Positions 236 to 55,750 of a DNA stretch of 64,000 bases are shown piece after piece (the first letter of the stretch is position 1; the number at the start of each line of letters is the position of its first letter). Location of the stretch: the NCBI RefSeq assembly GCF_000941055.1, contig NZ_CP007202.1, positions 1,174,001-1,238,000 of the forward strand, read 5' to 3'. Made by a program: the position numbers and the translations under genes. The notes under the pieces were generated by a model. That model was not told the origin of the DNA, did no database searches, and saw nothing but the letters and a program-made list of their open reading frames with translations. The stretch is from Siansivirga zeaxanthinifaciens CC-SAMT-1. GTDB taxonomy: Bacteria > Bacteroidota > Bacteroidia > Flavobacteriales > Flavobacteriaceae.

Positions 236-1258
236 ATGAATGAAAACCTAGATCCAACAAAAGCAAGTTTTACACCCGAAGAGTTAGATGTCGAAAAGAA
301 ATTAAGACCTCTGGCCTTTAGCGATTTTACAGGTCAAGATCAAGTACTTGAAAATTTAAAAATATTTGTTCAAGCAGCAAACCTGCGTGACGAGGCTTTA
401 GATCACACATTGTTTCATGGCCCACCTGGTTTAGGAAAAACAACTTTAGCACACATACTAGCTAACGAACTTAATGTAGGTATAAAAGTAACATCGGGTC
501 CTGTTTTAGATAAGCCCGGAGACCTAGCTGGTTTGTTAACAAATTTAGACGAACGTGATGTGCTTTTTATTGATGAAATACACCGGCTTAGCCCCATAGT
601 TGAAGAGTATTTATATTCCGCTATGGAAGACTATAAAATCGATATCATGATAGAGTCTGGGCCCAACGCAAGAACCGTTCAAATAAATCTTAATCCCTTT
701 ACATTAATTGGCGCCACAACGCGCTCCGGATTGTTAACAGCACCCATGCGTGCCCGTTTTGGTATTCAAAGCAGATTACAATATTACAACACCGAATTAT
801 TAACAACCATTGTGCAACGAAGCGCTTCCATTTTAAATATGCCCATATCTATGGAGGCTGCCATAGAAATTGCAGGCCGAAGCCGAGGTACACCTCGTAT
901 TGCGAATGCCTTATTGCGTAGAGTTCGAGATTTTGCTCAAATAAAAGGCAATGGAACCATAGATATCGCCATAGCAAAATTTGCCTTAAAAGCGCTAAAT
1001 GTTGACGCTTACGGTCTAGATGAAATGGACAATAAAATACTCGTAACCATTATCGATAAGTTTAAAGGAGGGCCCGTAGGTATAACAACGCTTGCCACCG
1101 CAGTTAGCGAAAGTGCCGAAACCATCGAAGAGGTTTACGAGCCATTCTTAATTCAGCAAGGGTTTATTATGCGTACACCTCGAGGCCGCGAAGTTACCGA
1201 ACAAGCCTATAAACATTTAGGAAAAATTAAAGGAGGCATTCAAGGCGGTTTATTTTAG
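236..1258 (+). CDS. ruvB: Holliday junction branch migration ATPase RuvB
   Basis: RuvB is the hexameric AAA+ motor that, with RuvA, drives branch migration of Holliday junctions in the cytoplasm during recombinational repair. The 340-residue length is normal. Visible motifs are Walker [10 protein letters not shown] (residues 62-70), Walker B LFIDEIH (110-116), the sensor 1 region LIGATTR (157-163), the arginine-finger segment MRARFG (171-176), sensor 2 [12 protein letters not shown], and the C-terminal winged helix ending GGIQGGLF. The partner ruvA lies at 13168-13749, not adjacent. The TAG stop touches an interspersed repeat that fills the whole gap to queG. Confidence 0.97.
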
Positions 1259-1352
1259 GGCATTCCCCAAGGGTCGCGCTTTCGCAAGTCGCTTTTTTGT
1301 AATTAAAAAAAAAATACAAAAAGAGCTCCAACAATTGCTCAATCGCTAATGC
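1258..1352 (-). repeat. Interspersed flavobacterial repeat, copy D
   Basis: Read on the minus strand it starts GCATTAGCGAT and ends AGCGCGACCC, then TTGGGGAATGCCC. It is the most diverged of four copies: the conserved loop of the other copies is replaced by a T-rich stretch. The central stem CTTTTTGTA/TACAAAAAAG is kept with one extra A. It occupies the whole ruvB-queG gap, starting within the ruvB stop codon and ending three bases before the queG start. Confidence 0.7.
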
Positions 1353-13755: not shown

Positions 13756-16700
13756 TTGAATATAACTAACCTTATTTCTTATAAATCGAATTCAAGATAT
13801 TACGCAAAGCGCAATATAATTGCGTTTATATTACTCTCAATTTTTACTTCATTAACTACTTGGGGACAACAAATACCAGTGCAAGATTCAGTTAAAACGG
13901 GATTTAGTCTTGGTAAAATTAAAACACCAAATCCAAACAGTGTAGAATCGAAATACACCTACGATGCGGTAACAAACAGATATATTTATACCGAGAAAAT
14001 TGGCGCATTTAATATTAACTACCCCGTTATTTTAACACCAAAAGAGTATTATGCATTGGTGGCTAAAGAAAACATTAAATCGTATTATAAAGAAAAAATT
14101 AATGCTTTCGACGGTAAAAAAGAAGGGGCAGAAGATGCACAAAAAAACCTTTTACCCGAATTTTATGTGAATTCTGGTTTTTTTGAAAGTGTTTTTGGTG
14201 GTAATACTATAGAAGTTATCCCTCAAGGTTCGGTAGAAATGGATTTAGGAATCTTGTTTTCGAGACAAGATAACCCATCGTTTTCACCAAGAAACCGAAG
14301 TAATTTTACATTCGATTTCGATCAAAGAATTAGTTTAAGCTTACTAGGAAAAGTAGGAACTAGGTTGCAAGTTACAGCCAATTATGATACGCAGTCTACT
14401 TTCGATTTTCAAAATCTTATAAAATTAGAATACACACCTACCGAAGACGATATTCTACAAAAAATTGAAGTTGGTAATGTGAATATGCCTCTAAATAGCT
14501 CACTTATTACCGGTGCACAAAGTTTATTTGGGGTTAAAGCGCAATTACAGTTTGGAAAAACCACGGTAACAGGTGTTTTCTCTGAACAAAAATCACAAGG
14601 TAATACTGTTATCGCCCAAGGCGGAGGTACTGTTGAAGAATTTGAACTTTTTATTAGAGATTACGACGAAAATCGCCATTTCTTTTTAGCTCAATATTTT
14701 AGGGATACCTATGATTCGGCACTTAAAAATTATCCTTTTATTAATAACAAAGGTCTTCAAATTACCCGACTAGAAGTTTGGGTAACCAATAGAAGCAATC
14801 GCACCGAAAATGTAAGAAATATTTTAGCATTACAGGATTTAGGTGAGGCCGATTTAATTGGTTTGCAAAACCCTCCCGCAGGATTTGTTAATGTTAGTCC
14901 GGGTGCGATCCCCGACAACAAAAATAATGACTTCGATCCCACAAATATTGGTATTGGAGATTCAAAATTAACTACAGCCGTTCGAGACGTATCAACCGTT
15001 CAAAACGGTATTTTAGTTCCTAATGTAAACGAAGGTTTCGATTATGCAAAATTAGAAAATGCCCGAAAATTAGTTAATGGTCAAGAATATACTCTAAACT
15101 CAGATTTAGGGTACATTTCCTTAAATCAACGCTTAAATAACGACGAAGTTTTAGCTGTAGCATTTCAATATACTTTGGGCGGAAAAGTTTACCAAGTTGG
15201 TGAATTTGCAAACGATGGTGTTAACGCTACCGATGTTACTACCAATGGTAGCGGGCAAGTAACTGGTGTTGTAAACAGCAACTTAGTTTTAAAGATGCTA
15301 AAAAGTAGTATCACTAATGTAACGCAACCTGTGTGGAAGTTAATGATGAAAAACATTTACGACACAGGTGCTTTTAATTTAAGTCAGGAAGATTTTAAAC
15401 TAAATATTTTTTATAACGAAGCATCACCCTTAAATTTTATAAAACCCGTTGGAGGAAGCTTTCCACTTGATGTTAATGGAAACCCTGTTTCTAGTAATAC
15501 TGAAGACAGAGATTTAATACAAAACTCACCACTTTTAAGAGTTTTTAATTTAGATAAATTAAATTACAATAACGACCCACAGCTAAGAGGCGATGGATTT
15601 TTCGACTTTGTCCCTGGTATTACCGTGATTCCTCAAAACGGTAAAATTGTATTTACAAGTGCCGAGCCTTTTGGTGAATATTTATTTAATGTTTTGGGTG
15701 GTGGTAATTATGATAATGAAGCTTCTTATAACGACAATCAGAAAAAATATGTATTCGATGTGCTTTATAAAAGCACCAAGGCAAGAGCATTGGAATTTCC
15801 AGAAAAAAATAAATTTAAATTAAAAGGACTCTATAAATCTACTGGCAGTGATGGTATTCCAATTGGTTCTTTTAACGTGCCAAGAGGTTCTGTTAAGGTT
15901 ACTGCAGGTGGTCGTGTTTTAGTAGAAGGTATCGATTATACAGTAAACTATCAGTTAGGGCGCGTTCAAATATTGGATGAAGCCTTAAAAGCATCCAACA
16001 CACCCATTGAAGTCTCTACCGAAAACAACGCAATTTTTGGTCAGCAAACCAGACGTTTTACAGGAATTAACATAGAACATAAATTTAATGAGAATTTCCT
16101 TTTAGGAGCCACCTTATTAAACCTAAACGAACGTCCTATTACTCAAAAAGCAAATTACGGTACCGAACCCATTAATAATACCATTTTTGGTTTTAATGGT
16201 AATTATGCAACAAAAGTTCCTTTTTTAACACGATTTGCAAACATGTTGCCAAACATAGATACCGATGTGGAATCTAATTTATCGCTACGTGGTGAATTTG
16301 CTTATTTGGCTCCAGGAGCGCCAAAAGGCACTAGTTTAAATGGTGAGTCAACGTCTTATATCGATGATTTTGAAGGTTCTCAAAATGCCATCGATTTAAA
16401 ATCTCAACAATCTTGGTTTTTATCGAGTAGGCCACTAGAAATTAACGGTACAACAGCATTCGACGATAACGGTATTGAAAACGGATATAATAGAGCCATG
16501 TTAAACTGGTACAATATAGATCCTATTTTTTATACTGGGCAACGCCCTAACGACATATCAGACAACGATATATCTAGTTTGTATACCAGCCGTGTATTTA
16601 TTAATGAATTGTTTCCAGAGCGCGATTTAGTTCAAGGTCAGAATTCAGTTTTAAATACTCTAGACTTAGTATATTATCCTGGCGAAAGAGGGCCTTATAA

Positions 16701-19700
16701 TTTCGACCCTTCCACTGTAAACGATGTTATTACCAATCCTCAAGAGTCATGGGCAGGTATTACACGTCAGTTAACATCAACCGATTTTGAGCAACAAAAT
16801 GTCGAGTATATCGAGTTTTGGTTACAAGATCCTTTTCAGGAAAATCCAAATAACCCTGGAGGTAAACTGGTTTTCAACTTAGGAAACATTTCAGAAGATA
16901 TCCTTAAGGATGGTAAAAAAATGTACGAAAACGGATTGCCAAAAGATGGTAATGTGAGTTTGTTAACACCTACAGACTGGGGTTCTGTAGTACCATTAAA
17001 TCAATCGTTAATTTACGCATTCGATAGTACTGGTCAAGAACGTACCAATCAAGATGTTGGGTACGATGGTTATAACGATGTCGAAGAAATTGCAGCTTTT
17101 GGTTCTAATTTTGGGGACGACCCTTCAAAAGATAATTATACATACTTTTTAAACGCAGAAGGCGATATTTTCGAGCGTTATAAAAAGTATAATGGTGTGG
17201 AAGGAAATACGCCCGAGACATTTACAAATACAGATCGTGGTGCCAATACCCAGCCCGATGTTGAGGATATTAATCGCGACAATACCATGAACACGATTAA
17301 TAGTTATTTCGAATATACCTTAGATATAAGAAGACAAAATTTACCAGAAACTCGTGAAGCCTTCGATAATCTGCCTGCTGGAAGTCCATTAAAAGAATTT
17401 TTAACAGATATTAAAATTGAACCGCGCGCGCTGCCAAACGGTCAAACAGAGCAGGTAAGATGGTATCAAGTTCGAATTCCTATAAATGTACCATTAGATA
17501 AGTTTGATGATAATGCATTTCCAGAATACAAACGTTACGGAGGTATTACAGATTTTAGATCCATTCGATTTGCTCGTATTTATTTAAAAGAGTTTACACA
17601 AAATACTATTTTCCGTTTTGGTACTTTAGATTTAGTTAGAAGTGAATGGAGACGTTATACGCAAGCTTTAGATAAAAACGATCCAACACCAGATGATGTT
17701 GATACAGAATTTTCAGTAGGCGTTGTTGGTACATTAGAAAATGAAGGTAGCTACCAAAGACCTCCTGGCATTGAGCCTGAAGAGTTGTTTAATAACAACA
17801 CGGTTATTCAACAAAATGAACAATCATTGGTAGTAAATGTGTGTAACCTAGAATCGCAAGATTCTAGAGGGGTTTACAAAAACATTAGCTTAGATATGCG
17901 CCAGTTTAAGCGTTTACGAATGTTTATGCACCTAGAAGAAGAGGCGACAGGTATTCCTAACCAAAATACCGTAGTTGGTTTTATTAGAATGGGTAACGAC
18001 CTTACCGAGAACTATTATCAAATAGAGATACCATTAAAAATTTCAGAGTCTCGAACGCGTGAAGGGCTTTGGCCAAAAGAAAATGAAATTGATTTGCCGC
18101 TAGATGTTTTAGGACAAATTAAAGCTTTAGGTATCGCTAATACGACGTTAAGCAACGAAGATCCTACCTTTTATAATGTAAATGATGGTGTTTTAGATGA
18201 TACACCCGTAGCTGAATTCTCAGATTATACCTTAGGTCAACACAGAATAGCCATTAAAGGAAATCCAAATTTTGGTGATATTAGAACTTTAATGGTAGGT
18301 TTAAAAAACGGTATTGGAAACAGTGCTACCGATGCGCCACCAATAATTTCGCCCGTTTGTGCCACAGCTTGGTTTAATGAATTACGCTTATCAGACATGG
18401 ATAACGAAGGTGGTTGGGCTGCCGTTGTAAGTATGGACACCAATATTGCCGATTTTATGAATATAAGTGCCACTGGAAGACAAAGTACCTCTGGTTTTGG
18501 TGGTATCGAGCAAGGGCCAAGTCAACGTAGTTTAGAAGATGTTAAACAATATGATGTAGTAACCAATGTAAATGTTGGGCAGTTGCTTCCAAAAAAATGG
18601 GGCATTCAATTACCATTTAATTATTCGCAAAGTGAAGAATTAATAACGCCTAAATACGATCAATTTTACGAAGATTTAACTTTAGACTCTCGCATTGAAG
18701 CCGCAACAAGCAATGCCCAACGCGAACAAATAAAACAACAATCGGAAGATTATACCAAGCGTCAAAGTATCAATTTTATTGGAGTAAGAAAAACAAGAAC
18801 AAGCGATGCTAAACCTCGTTTTTACGATGTTGAAAATCTAACTTTAAATTATTCATACAATAAAGTATTTCACAGAGATTTTGAAATTGAAAATTCTGTA
18901 AATAAAACGATAAGAGCAGGTGCAAATTATGCCTATAACTTTGCGCCTTTAAAAATAGAACCATTTAAAAAGAACGACTCTTTATTTACAGGAAAATACT
19001 GGCGATTAATTAAGGATTTTAATCTTAATTTACTGCCTACTAGTTTTGCTCTTAATACCGATATTAACAGACAATTTAATAGTCAGCGCTTTAGAGAAGT
19101 CGAATTGGGTGGAGGTAATATTGGACTAGAGGAATTATTTAGAAGAAATTACACTTTCGATTTTCAATATACTATTAACTACAACTTAACCGATGCCTTA
19201 AGTTTAAATTTTACAGCTTCAAATAACAATATTGTTAGAAATTATTTTAAAGACAATATTATTAATGGAGAACAAGACGAAACACTAGATGTTTGGGATG
19301 GCTTCTTTGATGTGGGCGATCCAAACCGACAAACACAAAACTTAGGAGTTACCTACAAGCTTCCATTCAATAAACTCCCTATGTTAAATTTTATTGATGC
19401 CACTTATCAATACAACGGGAATTTTCAATGGCAAAAGGGATCCGACTTATATGGAGAATTAGAGGTAGATGGTAATACTTTCGATTTAGGAAATACCATT
19501 CAAAACTCCAATACACATAATATCAATTCAAGTTTAGACATGAATAGATTTTATAAATACATTGGCTTAGTTAAAAAACCAATTTCACGGGCACGAGCAA
19601 ATCAAGGTTCGGCAGGAAGACCACCAGCACCAAATCAAGACAATGGTAAACCAGCAAAATCAAAGAATCAATCGACTACAAAATTGTTAAATGCAGGTGT

Positions 19701-21063
19701 AGATATTCTAACTAGTATTAAACGCATTCAGTTAAATTATTCCGAGAATAACGGAACTTTTTTACCAGGATATCTACAAACACCTGGTTTTATAGGAACC
19801 ATGAGGCCAACTGTAGGATTTACATTTGGTAGCCAAAGTGATGTTAGATTTTTAGCTGCAAAACGTGGTTGGTTAACCTTATTCCAGGAATTTAATCAGC
19901 AGTATACCACTACAAACACAAAACAATTAGATCTTTCGGCTAGTTTAGAACCTGTAAGAGATTTAAAAATCGATTTAATTGGAAACAGAGCCTATTTCGA
20001 AAACTATACCGAGAATTACAGAGTTAATAACAACGCAGGTGAATATGAGTACGAATCGCTAACACCTAACACGTTTGGTAATTTTAATATTTCAACCATA
20101 TTAATAAAAACGTCATTTAGTAAAAGCGACGAAACAACTTCTGAAGCCTTTAATGAATTTAGATCGAACCGTTTAACAATTGCGCGTAGATTGGCTCAGG
20201 CCAACGGCGTTAATATTACAGATGTAGATGCTGAAGGATACCCAAAAGGATTTGGTAAAAACAGCCAAGCCGTTTTATTACCAGCATTTTTAGCAGCATA
20301 TTCTGGTCAGGATGCTAGTAAGGTTAAAACATCGGCGTTTAGAGATGTTCCTTTACCAAACTGGGATTTAAAATACTCAGGTTTCATGAAGTTTAACTGG
20401 TTTAAAAAACGTTTCAAACGTTTTTCATTAACTCATGGCTATCGATCAACTTATACCATCAATCAGTTTCAGTCTAATTTAGATTATGTTCAACCCGATT
20501 TTAATAATCCTTACGATAATCAGCCTACAGAGGTAAGAGATCAATCTGGAAATTATAAAAATGAAACACTTTTTAGTAATATTAATTTAACAGAAATGTT
20601 TAGTCCTCTGGTTAGAATAGATTTCGAGATGAAAAATTCGGTAAAAATTTTAGCTGAAATTAAAAAAGACAGATTGTTATCTTTAAGCTTCGATAATAAT
20701 TTAATGACCGAAGTTTTAGGTAACGAATATGTTGTTGGTTTAGGTTATAGAATTAAAGATTTACGAATTCGATCTAATTTGGCTGGGCCAAGTAAACGTA
20801 TTGTGAGTGATTTAAACATGAAAGCAGATATTTCAATTCGCGATAATAAAACCATTATTCGTTATTTAGATTTAGAAAACAATCAAGTTACCTCGGGTCA
20901 AACCATTTGGGGACTTAAATATTCGGCCGATTATGCTTTTAGTAAAAACTTAACAGGTATATTTTATTTTGATTATACATTCTCAGAATATGCCATATCA
21001 ACAGCATTTCCACAAACAACTGTTCGTTCGGGAATTACTATAAGATATAATTTTGGCAATTAA
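13756..21063 (+). CDS. sprA: Type IX secretion translocon / gliding protein SprA
   Basis: A 2435-residue outer-membrane protein. SprA forms the giant 36-strand barrel through which type IX cargo crosses the outer membrane, and it is needed for gliding in Flavobacterium johnsoniae. A TTG start fits: no ATG precedes the signal sequence (residues about 19-38, hydrophobic, ending TTWGQQ), and TTG lies six bases after the ruvA stop. The mature N-terminus has the family-like SKYTYDAVTNRYIYTEKIG, and the C-terminus ends in a barrel strand (ITIRYNFGN). The length is as expected. The downstream TonB and RemB-like genes belong to the same surface-machinery neighbourhood. Confidence 0.96.
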   Translation: MNITNLISYKSNSRYYAKRNIIAFILLSIFTSLTTWGQQIPVQDSVKTGFSLGKIKTPNPNSVESKYTYDAVTNRYIYTEKIGAFNINYPVILTPKEYYALVAKENIKSYYKEKINAFDGKKEGAEDAQKNLLPEFYVNSGFFESVFGGNTIEVIPQGSVEMDLGILFSRQDNPSFSPRNRSNFTFDFDQRISLSLLGKVGTRLQVTANYDTQSTFDFQNLIKLEYTPTEDDILQKIEVGNVNMPLNSSLITGAQSLFGVKAQLQFGKTTVTGVFSEQKSQGNTVIAQGGGTVEEFELFIRDYDENRHFFLAQYFRDTYDSALKNYPFINNKGLQITRLEVWVTNRSNRTENVRNILALQDLGEADLIGLQNPPAGFVNVSPGAIPDNKNNDFDPTNIGIGDSKLTTAVRDVSTVQNGILVPNVNEGFDYAKLENARKLVNGQEYTLNSDLGYISLNQRLNNDEVLAVAFQYTLGGKVYQVGEFANDGVNATDVTTNGSGQVTGVVNSNLVLKMLKSSITNVTQPVWKLMMKNIYDTGAFNLSQEDFKLNIFYNEASPLNFIKPVGGSFPLDVNGNPVSSNTEDRDLIQNSPLLRVFNLDKLNYNNDPQLRGDGFFDFVPGITVIPQNGKIVFTSAEPFGEYLFNVLGGGNYDNEASYNDNQKKYVFDVLYKSTKARALEFPEKNKFKLKGLYKSTGSDGIPIGSFNVPRGSVKVTAGGRVLVEGIDYTVNYQLGRVQILDEALKASNTPIEVSTENNAIFGQQTRRFTGINIEHKFNENFLLGATLLNLNERPITQKANYGTEPINNTIFGFNGNYATKVPFLTRFANMLPNIDTDVESNLSLRGEFAYLAPGAPKGTSLNGESTSYIDDFEGSQNAIDLKSQQSWFLSSRPLEINGTTAFDDNGIENGYNRAMLNWYNIDPIFYTGQRPNDISDNDISSLYTSRVFINELFPERDLVQGQNSVLNTLDLVYYPGERGPYNFDPSTVNDVITNPQESWAGITRQLTSTDFEQQNVEYIEFWLQDPFQENPNNPGGKLVFNLGNISEDILKDGKKMYENGLPKDGNVSLLTPTDWGSVVPLNQSLIYAFDSTGQERTNQDVGYDGYNDVEEIAAFGSNFGDDPSKDNYTYFLNAEGDIFERYKKYNGVEGNTPETFTNTDRGANTQPDVEDINRDNTMNTINSYFEYTLDIRRQNLPETREAFDNLPAGSPLKEFLTDIKIEPRALPNGQTEQVRWYQVRIPINVPLDKFDDNAFPEYKRYGGITDFRSIRFARIYLKEFTQNTIFRFGTLDLVRSEWRRYTQALDKNDPTPDDVDTEFSVGVVGTLENEGSYQRPPGIEPEELFNNNTVIQQNEQSLVVNVCNLESQDSRGVYKNISLDMRQFKRLRMFMHLEEEATGIPNQNTVVGFIRMGNDLTENYYQIEIPLKISESRTREGLWPKENEIDLPLDVLGQIKALGIANTTLSNEDPTFYNVNDGVLDDTPVAEFSDYTLGQHRIAIKGNPNFGDIRTLMVGLKNGIGNSATDAPPIISPVCATAWFNELRLSDMDNEGGWAAVVSMDTNIADFMNISATGRQSTSGFGGIEQGPSQRSLEDVKQYDVVTNVNVGQLLPKKWGIQLPFNYSQSEELITPKYDQFYEDLTLDSRIEAATSNAQREQIKQQSEDYTKRQSINFIGVRKTRTSDAKPRFYDVENLTLNYSYNKVFHRDFEIENSVNKTIRAGANYAYNFAPLKIEPFKKNDSLFTGKYWRLIKDFNLNLLPTSFALNTDINRQFNSQRFREVELGGGNIGLEELFRRNYTFDFQYTINYNLTDALSLNFTASNNNIVRNYFKDNIINGEQDETLDVWDGFFDVGDPNRQTQNLGVTYKLPFNKLPMLNFIDATYQYNGNFQWQKGSDLYGELEVDGNTFDLGNTIQNSNTHNINSSLDMNRFYKYIGLVKKPISRARANQGSAGRPPAPNQDNGKPAKSKNQSTTKLLNAGVDILTSIKRIQLNYSENNGTFLPGYLQTPGFIGTMRPTVGFTFGSQSDVRFLAAKRGWLTLFQEFNQQYTTTNTKQLDLSASLEPVRDLKIDLIGNRAYFENYTENYRVNNNAGEYEYESLTPNTFGNFNISTILIKTSFSKSDETTSEAFNEFRSNRLTIARRLAQANGVNITDVDAEGYPKGFGKNSQAVLLPAFLAAYSGQDASKVKTSAFRDVPLPNWDLKYSGFMKFNWFKKRFKRFSLTHGYRSTYTINQFQSNLDYVQPDFNNPYDNQPTEVRDQSGNYKNETLFSNINLTEMFSPLVRIDFEMKNSVKILAEIKKDRLLSLSFDNNLMTEVLGNEYVVGLGYRIKDLRIRSNLAGPSKRIVSDLNMKADISIRDNKTIIRYLDLENNQVTSGQTIWGLKYSADYAFSKNLTGIFYFDYTFSEYAISTAFPQTTVRSGITIRYNFGN

Positions 21064-23713: not shown

Positions 23714-25813
23714 ATGAAGAGATTCTTAGTGATACTTTTCGTTTTTGTGCAAAGTTTTAGCTTCTCGCAAAGTAAAATGTTTTTTGAAAAACCACCAGTT
23801 TTTTCCAATTGTGACTCGGTCGCTGTTAAAGATTTACAATCTTGTTTCGATACTCAAGTTTTTAAGCTTATTCACGAAAATTTTAAAACCCCCGAAAAAG
23901 TTTTAAAAGATGATTACCGTGGCGAATTACGCGTGCTTTTTGATGTAGACACTACCGGCGTATTTCATATTATATATGTAAATTCGGTTTACCAAGAGCT
24001 AAAAGACGAGGCGAAACGTGTGTTTTCAAATTTTCCAAAGGTATATCCATCAACTTATAATGGCAGGAAAATAGATAAACAGTATACGGTTACTATTAAA
24101 ATTCCTTTAGAAGAAAATAATTATACAAACAAGCCTGTCGATGAAATAAAGAAAGTAAATAACATTGAAGCGCATGCTAAGGCTGAAATGGATAGTATTA
24201 ATACCTCGATAACGGCGTATGAAAATAAAGCCTTTTCCAGTCAGTTAAACGTGCCTTTTACTCATGCCGATTATTATAAGTTTGACCGACAAATGAATGT
24301 TATTGGTGCTAACAGTCACACGGCCTCTAAGCCCTTTGTGTACGAGGAAGTCTCCCGATATTATGATTTTGATTTAGAAACTAAGAAACTACAAAAAACC
24401 ACAAGTACTTGGGGCGGTAGAAAGTTATGGAATGAACATTTAGTGCAAATTCAAACGAAGGATTATTGGTTTACCTTCGATCCAATTCTAGATTTAGAAC
24501 TTGGAAAAGATACAGAAGCCGATTTTAATTACACGTTTAATAATACGCGCGGTATAAAAGTTCAAGGGGGGTTGGGTAGTAAACTTAACTTTTATGCTAC
24601 CGTTTTTGAAAGTCAGGGGCGTTTTGCACAGTATGTAAACACATACGCCGAAAGTTTAAAGGCTTTCGGGCCAGATCCTGCTATTGTTCCAGGGCGAGGC
24701 ATTGCCAAGCGTTTTAAAACCGATGCTTACGACTATCCGGTTGCAGAGGCTTATTTGTCGTTTGCTCCAACTAAGTTTATGAATATTCAGTTTGGGCATG
24801 CCAAGAATTTTATTGGCGATGGTTATCGGTCGTTGTTATTGAGCGATGTTGCTAGTCCGCACCCATTTTTAAAACTCAACACTTCTTTTTGGAAAATAAA
24901 ATACACGAATACCTGGATGTGGTTAAAAGATGTTAGGCCAGAAGTACAGGAAGATGGTGCGTTTTTAACTAAATACATAGCAAACCACTATTTAAGTTGG
25001 AATGTATCTAAACGCTTTAATTTAGGATTGTTTGAATCGGTGATATGGACAAACTCGAATAACCGAGGTTTTGATGTTAATTATTTGAATCCGATTATTT
25101 TTTATCGCGCCATAGAGTTTGAAACGGGTCAAGATGCCGGAAATGCTATTTTAGGCGCAACAGCTAAGTATAAATGGAATGATTGTGTTAATGTTTACGG
25201 ACAATTTATTTTAGATGAGTTTTCCTTAAGTGATGTTAAGGCAGGGGAGAAAAGTTGGAAAAATAAATTTGGCTATCAATTAGGCGCAAAATATTTTAAT
25301 GCTTTTAATGTTGAAAATTTAATGTTACAGTTTGAATATAATCGTGTGCGACCCTACACATATTCTCATAACACCATTGCTACCAATTATGGTCACAATA
25401 ACCAATCGATGGCACATTTGTGGGGTGCCAATTTTAGTGAAGCGATTTTAATTGGGCGCTATTATTTAGACCGTTGGTTTGCAAATGCGAAATTGATTTT
25501 TGGTGTTCGAGGTTTAGATTTTAATGATGGTGTGGATGATTTTAGTTACGGTAGCGATGTATATAGAAACTATAACGACCGTCCGTTTGATAAAGGTGTT
25601 GAAGTAGGGCAAGGCAATAAATCGAAGGTATTTAATGGGAACTTACAAGTTGGGTATTTAATAAATCCGGCTTCTAACTTGAAGATTTTTACCGATATTA
25701 CGTATAGGAATTTTAACCCAGAAGCCCAAACTTTAACAGCTTTTAAAAGCAATACGGTTTGGTTTAATTTTGGTGTAAGAACCGATTTGTTTAACTGGTA
25801 TTTCGATAATTAA
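23714..25813 (+). CDS. RemB-like gliding-associated outer-membrane protein
   Basis: A 699-residue exported protein with signal peptide MKRFLVILFVFVQSFSFSQ. Residues about 27-133 (PPVFSNCDS ... YTVTIKIPLE) resemble the C-terminal domain of the two upstream TonB proteins. The rest looks like an outer-membrane barrel rich in alternating aromatic strands, with a Wzi/capsule-assembly flavour, ending VRTDLFNWYFDN. In F. johnsoniae I recall remB in the same place downstream of sprA, where it affects gliding and phage sensitivity. The name is therefore by family and synteny; a biochemical role is not established. Repeat copy C follows the stop. Confidence 0.7.
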   Translation: MKRFLVILFVFVQSFSFSQSKMFFEKPPVFSNCDSVAVKDLQSCFDTQVFKLIHENFKTPEKVLKDDYRGELRVLFDVDTTGVFHIIYVNSVYQELKDEAKRVFSNFPKVYPSTYNGRKIDKQYTVTIKIPLEENNYTNKPVDEIKKVNNIEAHAKAEMDSINTSITAYENKAFSSQLNVPFTHADYYKFDRQMNVIGANSHTASKPFVYEEVSRYYDFDLETKKLQKTTSTWGGRKLWNEHLVQIQTKDYWFTFDPILDLELGKDTEADFNYTFNNTRGIKVQGGLGSKLNFYATVFESQGRFAQYVNTYAESLKAFGPDPAIVPGRGIAKRFKTDAYDYPVAEAYLSFAPTKFMNIQFGHAKNFIGDGYRSLLLSDVASPHPFLKLNTSFWKIKYTNTWMWLKDVRPEVQEDGAFLTKYIANHYLSWNVSKRFNLGLFESVIWTNSNNRGFDVNYLNPIIFYRAIEFETGQDAGNAILGATAKYKWNDCVNVYGQFILDEFSLSDVKAGEKSWKNKFGYQLGAKYFNAFNVENLMLQFEYNRVRPYTYSHNTIATNYGHNNQSMAHLWGANFSEAILIGRYYLDRWFANAKLIFGVRGLDFNDGVDDFSYGSDVYRNYNDRPFDKGVEVGQGNKSKVFNGNLQVGYLINPASNLKIFTDITYRNFNPEAQTLTAFKSNTVWFNFGVRTDLFNWYFDN

Positions 25814-25827
25814 TAGCCTGTTATTTT

Positions 25828-25911
25828 GCGTTAGGGATAGTAGTGGAAATCCTTTTTGAGAGGCACGAACAAAAAGATTGTAACGTATAGCCCGACCTTT
25901 AGGGAACGCCC
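25828..25911 (+). repeat. Interspersed flavobacterial repeat, copy C
   Basis: Plus-strand copy starting GCGTTAGGGATAGTAGTGG, with central stem CTTTTTG/CAAAAAG around a loop containing AGGCACGAA. The right end is TATAGCCCGACCTTTAGGG then AACGCC. It begins 15 bases after the RemB-like stop codon and ends before the ctaB promoter. Confidence 0.8.
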
Positions 25912-41420: not shown

Positions 41421-41500
41421 GGCGTTACCACAAGGGTCGCGCTTTACACTATATCTTTTTCTCGTACCTCAAAAAAGGATGCCGTTTCAATCGCTAACGC
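41420..41500 (-). repeat. Interspersed flavobacterial repeat, copy A
   Basis: Read on the minus strand it starts GCGTTAGCGATTGAAACGG and has the loop GAGGTACGAG flanked by CTTTTT and AAAAAG. It ends AAAGCGCGACCCTTGTGG then TAACGCC. It abuts the stop codon of the upstream gene and lies in the convergent gap before murI. Confidence 0.8.
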
Positions 41501-54230: not shown

Positions 54231-55463
54231 ATGGCGAAAGAAGAATTAGAATGTTCATTTTGTGGTCGTAAAAAACCAGAAACTAATTTATTGATAGCAG
54301 GATTAGATGCTCACATTTGCGATAGATGTATTGAGCAAGCACATGGTATTGTTTTAGAAGAATCGAAACAATCCGATTCAGACGATTTATCTGCCGAGTT
54401 AAAACTGCGCAAACCACAGCAAATAAAAGAGTTTTTAGACGAATATATTATTGGTCAGAATATGACCAAAAAAGTAATGTCTGTAGCAGTTTACAACCAT
54501 TACAAACGTTTATTACAACCCAATACCTCAGATGATATTGAAATACAAAAAAGTAATATCATCATGGTTGGTCAAACGGGTACAGGAAAAACATTAATAG
54601 CTAAAACCATTGCTAAAATGTTAAATGTGCCTTTAGCAATTGTTGATGCCACGGTATTAACAGAAGCTGGTTATGTTGGTGAAGATGTAGAAAGCATTTT
54701 AACACGTTTATTACAAGCAGCCGATTACAACCTAGAAAAAGCAGAAAAGGGGATTGTTTTTATTGATGAAATTGATAAAATTGCTCGTAAAAGCGATAAT
54801 CCTTCAATAACTCGAGATGTTTCGGGTGAAGGTGTGCAACAGGCTTTATTAAAATTATTAGAAGGAACGGTTGTAAATGTACCGCCAAAGGGTGGTCGTA
54901 AGCATCCCGATCAAAAGTTTATCGAAGTAAATACCGAAAATATTTTATTTATTGCTGGTGGTGCTTTCGATGGTATCGATCGTGTTATTTCTAGACGTTT
55001 AAATATGCAGGCTGTTGGATATAGTGCTTCCATTTCAGATAATGTAGTAGATAAAAACCATTTACTTCAATATATTATTCCGAAGGATTTAAAAGATTTT
55101 GGATTAATACCTGAAATTATTGGTCGTTTGCCGGTATTAACTTACATGGATCCTTTAGATGCCGATACTTTAAGAGCCATACTTACACAGCCTAAAAACG
55201 CAATTATAAAACAGTATCAAAAATTATTCTCTATGGATGATATTGATTTTAAAATTACCGATGGAGCCTTAGATTATATTGTTGACAAAGCTATCGAATA
55301 TAAATTAGGAGCGAGAGGCTTACGTTCTTTATGTGAGGAAATTTTAACCGATGCCATGTTCGAGTTACCAAGTAGCGACGATACCGAGCTTAAGGTTACT
55401 AAGGCTTACGCCGAAGAAAAATTATCGAAAATAACTTTAAAGAAACTAAAAGCAGTTTCTTAA
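54231..55463 (+). CDS. clpX: ATP-dependent Clp protease ATP-binding subunit ClpX
   Basis: A 410-residue AAA+ unfoldase that feeds ClpP. It has a zinc-binding N-domain (Cys8, Cys11, Cys30, Cys33) and Walker A GQTGTGKT (114-121). The pore loop is GYVG (147-150), Walker B VFIDEID (176-182), and sensor 2 lies in [13 protein letters not shown]. Full length and intact. A strong palindromic terminator follows. Confidence 0.97.
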
Positions 55464-55484
55464 AAAAGAAGATTATTATAATAA

Positions 55485-55520
55485 AAAGAAAGCCACGTAT
55501 ATACGTGGCTTTCTTTTTTT
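55485..55520 (+). terminator. Terminator after clpX
   Basis: A perfect 32-bp palindrome (AAAGAAAGCCACGTAT with its complement) is followed by a T-run. Confidence 0.9.
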
Positions 55521-55750
55521 GTATGGATTTACTAATTAATATAAAATATCGAGAGTGAATTACGAATAATTCGTATTTTAAATTCCTTTAAGGGATTGAA
55601 TTTTAATACCTGAAATAATATTTTTTAAAAACTTGGTTAAAAATAGATGTAATAAAAACTTTGGCAAAGCTTCAAAAGACACTTTTAGACCATAAGGCTA
55701 AATATTCGTTTAAAAACTTTGCGCTTGGTCGTTGGTCGATGTTTTTCAAA
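55521..55750. other. Non-coding gap between clpX and the GH3-like gene
   Basis: About 230 AT-rich bases without a convincing gene. It holds a small palindrome (ACGAATAATTCGT), near-repeats of TAAAAACTT, and the tandem TTGGTCGTTGGTCG at about 55727. A 36-codon frame near its end has no start context. Confidence 0.4.

Follow-up and report, generated by a model that had tools for sequence, protein, structure and literature searches.

We found that the repeat at positions 25828–25911 of the window, the 64,000-nucleotide stretch of DNA analysed here, is or closely resembles an already named family, Flavo-1 (Rfam RF01705). A 2010 study entered Flavo-1 as a probable Bacteroidetes RNA and assigned it no function (Weinberg 2010, PMC2864571), and a survey counts it among the most abundant small RNAs (PMC9029176). 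For more than 15 years the family has stood as a probable RNA with no known function, but mobile folded DNA explains it better. On balance, we lean towards a mobile element of the REP/MITE kind, active as folded single-stranded DNA and carrying an exchangeable inner hairpin. Should Flavo-1 indeed be folded DNA, many flavobacterial genomes carry misleading annotations, and attention shifts to the enzyme responsible for its movement.

Flavo-1 copies in the window and in related genomes

The initial annotation described four copies (A–D) of a hairpin repeat in the window, and all four lie where it implied. They are given here with the genes flanking copy C:

1258–1352, minus strand: copy D, type IV core (GTTGGAGCTC..GCGAC) with apical TTTTTGTA/TACAAAAA; model R1, 23 bits
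2300–2381, plus strand: copy B, type III core (GCCCACAGCGAGGTACGAGCGCGGACTT); RF01705, 32.5 bits; R1, 55 bits
23714–25813, plus strand: gene upstream of copy C, 699 amino acids, no Pfam match
25828–25911, plus strand: copy C, type I core; RF01705, 59 bits at 25811–25901
25860–25869, plus strand: apical loop of copy C, GAGGCACGAA
25974–26918, plus strand: gene downstream of copy C, UbiA family, protoheme IX farnesyltransferase-like, ctaB
41421–41500, minus strand: copy A, type II core (CGGCATCC..GATATAG) with a GAGGTACGA loop; RF01705, 50.1 bits; R1, 78 bits

Copies C and A pass the RF01705 gathering score of 42 bits, copy B falls under it and copy D is absent from the match list. Model R1 also matches copy C on the plus strand, with 75 bits at 25823–25898. 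Copy C begins about 15 nt after the stop codon of the 699-residue gene, and copy D overlaps the ruvB stop codon.

The window genome, a 3.3-Mb flavobacterium, has 45 RF01705 matches, and a pattern search with the 5′ half of the element recovered seven further copies, a 61-nt short form among them. The genome thus holds at least 45 copies, together with short and divergent forms outside the Rfam model. Flavo-1 is present in 123 of 199 genomes of the family, and in another genus copy numbers run from 30 to 115 in most of nine genomes.

A constant frame around variable inner modules

When copies were aligned at their ends, the element boundaries fell at TTT|GCGTTA and GCC|CAAA. The outer stem pairs GCGTTA with TAACGC. 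Inward of it, the lower stem consists of three pairs, a 1 × 1 A.G mismatch and two pairs, followed by an internal loop of GNA opposite GNA, two more pairs and a second internal loop of 3 × 3. An upper stem with an unpaired C then carries the apical hairpin, which varies between copies, and another small variable hairpin (GACC..GGT) precedes the 3′ end. Many relatives have a sister class with the ends TAGCC..AGCT(T/C)C. In copy C, these parts are the GCGTTA outer stem, the lower stem GGGATA/TATAGCCC with its GNA/GNA loops, the apical GAGGCACGA hairpin, the second hairpin and the GGGAACGCCC end. The inner half of the element falls into at least five types:

Type I: GGAAATCC/GATTGTAAC
Type II: GGCATCC/GATATAGC
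Type III: GCCCACAGCGAGGTACGAGCGCGGACTT
Type IV: GTTGGAGCTC../GAGCGAC
Type V: AAGCTACCGTGTAGC

The Rfam family shares the lower stem and the variable apical part with the window copies, but models a single core type, filed as RNA, and lacks the GCGTTA/TAACGC outer stem, the second hairpin and core types III, IV and V.

The stems given in the initial annotation are real (CTTTTT/AAAAAG in A, CTTTTTG/CAAAAAG in C, an imperfect GC-rich stem in B and CTTTTTGTA/TACAAAAAAG in D), as is the loop, but together they form just the upper part of a hairpin that extends further. The loop was said to be kept while the stems change. This holds for copies A, B and C, each of which contains one of exactly three GAGGYACGAR motifs in the window (0.10 expected from shuffles), but not genome-wide: a GAGGNACGAR loop occurs in many copies, and apart from that motif no part of the element varies more than the tip. 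The GAGGCACGAA loop of copy C could fold into tandem G.A pairs and a G-C pair closing a GNA triloop, a reading that we draw from its letters.

The loop of copies A–C, GAGGNACGAA, is also found followed by GCAAT at L111:8922-8936, L233:1438-1452 and L244:1416-1473. In these relatives it looks like a separate short hairpin repeat, twice inverted in L244, with a stem that we take, unaligned, to be ATTGC. This motif may be a module common to both repeats. At L117:9718-9858, the apical loop of a Flavo-1 copy contains GATTGCTTCGTCCTTCGTCCTCGCAATGACG, like another dispersed repeat, as if the loops of Flavo-1 accepted other repeats.

Covariation in the lower stem

Among 60 copies drawn from many genomes, pairing holds in 98.5% of stem cells, and in 8 of 13 pairs both partners have changed. 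The covariation score of 0.552 compares with 0.166 after shuffling and no more than 0.133 when the partners are slid. We applied an R-scape-style test (G statistic with average-product correction) with a null in which the inferred substitutions are replayed at random positions along a FastTree tree. Four pairs, 12-80, 13-79, 17-75 and 22-70, exceeded this null (E 0.0025 to 0.005); pairs 27-65 and 28-64 also scored, but are tied to the switch between types I and II. The initial annotation had named a lack of covariation above the phylogenetic background as the outcome that would speak against selection on structure; since four pairs exceed the tree null, such covariation is present, in several pairs of the lower stem. 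Single-sequence folding energies were no better than those of shuffles.

These results support selection on the secondary structure of Flavo-1, as had been proposed from paired changes among copies A–D. Those particular stem differences, however, are not pair-by-pair compensations. Copies A (type II) and C (type I) have closely related cores, and in copies B (type III) and D (type IV) the same frame encloses other inner modules; the differences among A–D are replacements of the whole inner module, and base-level covariation lies elsewhere in the element.

Pairing in DNA or in RNA

Among Flavo-1 pairs with at least two Watson–Crick types, G-U occupied 3 of 480 cells and A-C none. The same analysis of 6S-Flavo RNA from the same family genomes, a control with few variable pairs (11), gave G-U in 33 of 308 cells. 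Wobble pairs are normally passed through as RNA helices change, so the near absence of G-U is an argument for pairing at the DNA level. In the GNA loops, the opposed G and A are invariant, or nearly so, on one strand, which argues for a folded single strand and not a double-stranded palindrome. The purine mismatch A.G swaps to G.A.

Copies in the window genome show no strand preference relative to genes (13 with the genes and 16 against, in tandem gene pairs), and the same is true of another genus (11 with and 13 against). Nor is there a strand bias between the GC-skew halves of the window genome (about 13:12 and 12:8 by strand, our own count), so that the replichore bias expected of IS200-type elements is not seen. 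At coarse sampling, GC skew switches near 1.0 and 2.5 Mb; dnaA of the G000 chromosome lies at 3.137 Mb, away from both switches. By contrast with these even counts, the best match per genome in 29 other genera had 22 of 23 tandem copies pointing against the genes, a count in which several orthologous sites recur (sufD–sufS, aroC–transporter, phoH–purC and hgd–hppD, by our own reading of the proteins). A local function is possible at some sites, where one orientation is kept across many genera. In Flavobacterium psychrophilum RNA-seq, Flavo-1 matches lie sense and antisense to transcripts alike, and many are untranscribed (PMC9723704). Because G-U pairs are nearly absent and the copies have no preferred strand, we favour folded single-stranded DNA over RNA as the active form.

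Genomic placement and mobility

Using ctaB to find the site orthologous to that of copy C in 80 related genomes, we found the site occupied in two, both Mariniflexile; the other 78 had no copy there, some of them with little sequence upstream of ctaB. Twelve further sites, compared in up to six relatives each, were mostly empty. Some empty sites show a clean gap (L204/L287, L014/L293, L008/L301 and L021/L309), with flanks too diverged for target-site duplications to be read. Two short copies, L380 and L381, are identical over 61 nt and have unrelated flanks.

Copies are rare between divergent genes (3 of 45). Between tandem genes, the nearer gene end is a stop codon in 21 of 29 cases, with a median distance of 24 nt from the upstream stop codon versus 51 nt to the next start. 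Sites that are mostly empty in relatives and copies that lie beside stop codons together point to REP/MITE-like spread. At L381:1120-1175, a 198-residue gene (ending ELADLRVRD*) takes its final codons and stop from the element, which can therefore overlap gene ends.

Flavo-1 resembles REP/RAYT systems in its many short intergenic hairpins by gene ends, its strand-specific fold and its presence or absence between relatives; like a REP, it is a high-copy intergenic palindrome with such a fold. It differs from REPs in its greater length (about 60–150 nt), its modular inner hairpin and the lack of a RAYT in the window genome. Like a MITE, it is short and non-autonomous with imperfect inverted ends (TTTGCGTTA / TAACGCCCAAA), but no parent transposon was found between neighbouring copies in the two gene intervals viewed, both of which hold housekeeping genes, and the conservation of its mismatched internal loops speaks for a folded single strand and not for two terminal repeats. 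A full-text literature search for flavobacterial MITE or REP repeats returned no paper; a 2025 REP survey gives counts for Flavobacterium and mentions no RAYT or transposase (PMC12306157).

Integron attC sites are also folded-strand hairpins in which one base is bulged, loops are unpaired and the tip varies. The end boxes of Flavo-1 are reversed relative to theirs, GTTA..TAAC (GCGTTA, TAACGCC) as against RYYYAAC..GTTRRRY, and no cassette arrangement as in integrons was seen; we therefore rejected this assignment.

Probable exchange of the inner module

Orthologous filled sites have a common frame and different interiors. L001 and L296 share AAGGATAG and an unusual TGTTAAAACGCC end, with a type I core in one, a type II core in the other and unrelated tips; L014 and L306 share the rare GCGTGA/ACACGCC ends and also have unrelated tips. 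Conversely, the inner hairpin GCTGCCATATATGGC sits on a type I core in the window genome and on a type II core elsewhere in another genus. Linkage between frame state and core type in the window genome was not significant (p 0.06 to 0.29).

At the sufD–sufS site, compared in the 30 genera whose sufS is closest to that of the query, the frame is present in 26, with 12 type II, 11 type IV and 3 other or degraded cores, typed by eye and including one locus, G162, drawn from a separate set. The inner module has changed repeatedly at this site. On the sufS tree, we counted at least seven type changes (6 to 8 over bootstraps), three of them forced by well-supported branches, and core type was no more clustered than shuffled labels on this tree, which is only partly resolved. 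To our knowledge, no REP-like element has been described in which the inner module is replaced repeatedly at one fixed orthologous site. In this interval (L406-L435), the element makes up almost the whole 5′ untranslated region of sufS across the 26 genera and lies opposite to the operon.

Alternative explanations

One alternative, which we regard as possible but doubtful, dispenses with inner exchange: whole elements would be lost, and elements would insert repeatedly at these preferred sites without a change of orientation. At sufD–sufS, pair 17-75 switches along with the module, so that the constant part there shrinks to about 10 nt per side, which leaves room for repeated re-insertion at this site. 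Re-insertion fits less well with the pairs L001/L296 and L014/L306, which keep their unusual frames while the modules differ. Somewhat less probable is a structured non-coding RNA as in Rfam, either a small RNA or a 3′ or 5′ untranslated-region element, selected as RNA. Loops of the sheared G.A type, common in RNA, would suit it, as would the conservation of sites such as sufD–sufS across genera. The earlier listing as a probable RNA also speaks for it (Weinberg 2010), but almost no G-U pairs are seen, neither the window genome nor the other genus shows a strand preference relative to genes, and the F. psychrophilum data lack consistent sense transcription (PMC9723704).

Flavo-1 could also be a REP moved by a RAYT (TnpA-REP), for example of the Bacteroidetes subclass 2.6, which is flanked by atypical structures or hairpins (PMC6006769), with the transposase since lost from the window genome. 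Dispersed, intergenic hairpins near stop codons are what such a system would leave, and the RAYT subclass exists, but a Y1_Tnp search of the window genome gave no match despite its 45 copies. None of 20 RAYT-like loci in relatives has a Flavo-1 over the gathering score within about 3 kb, one of them (L093) having a single short, weak R1 match about 1.5 kb away, and Y1_Tnp occurs in 19 of 42 high-copy genomes as against 54 of 157 others (our own count). The Y1_Tnp search, the flank scans and co-occurrence with copy number thus give the RAYT link no support, and we consider it quite improbable. The closeness to stop codons would equally suit a transcription terminator or a stabiliser of mRNA 3′ ends, but no U-run follows the element and both orientations occur, making this the most improbable of the alternatives by our estimate, with very little chance of being right.

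Returning to a mobile element that acts as folded DNA, its fixed outer frame (GCGTTA..TAACGC or TAGCC..AGCT pairing, the lower stem and the GNA/GNA loop) would form on one strand only and would probably be recognised by a putative recombinase or transposase. The inner part would be an exchangeable hairpin module of the types I–V. New copies would settle beside stop codons, and at an occupied site the inner module would later be replaced by another while the frame stays, perhaps through repair from other copies after hairpin cleavage or through template switching, routes that we guess from general knowledge. A more far-reaching idea, which we put forward only tentatively and think rather unlikely, is an as yet undescribed form of single-stranded DNA recombination in Flavobacteriaceae, in which the hairpin frame would dock modules swapped repeatedly by a dedicated putative enzyme.

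Other features of the window

The window contains a very long open frame of 2435 amino acids at 13756–21063. At 55446–55555, a strong GC-rich palindrome, AAAGCCACGTATATACGTGGCTTT, is flanked by A/T runs on both strands and gives weak Leu_leader hits; it is probably a bidirectional terminator.
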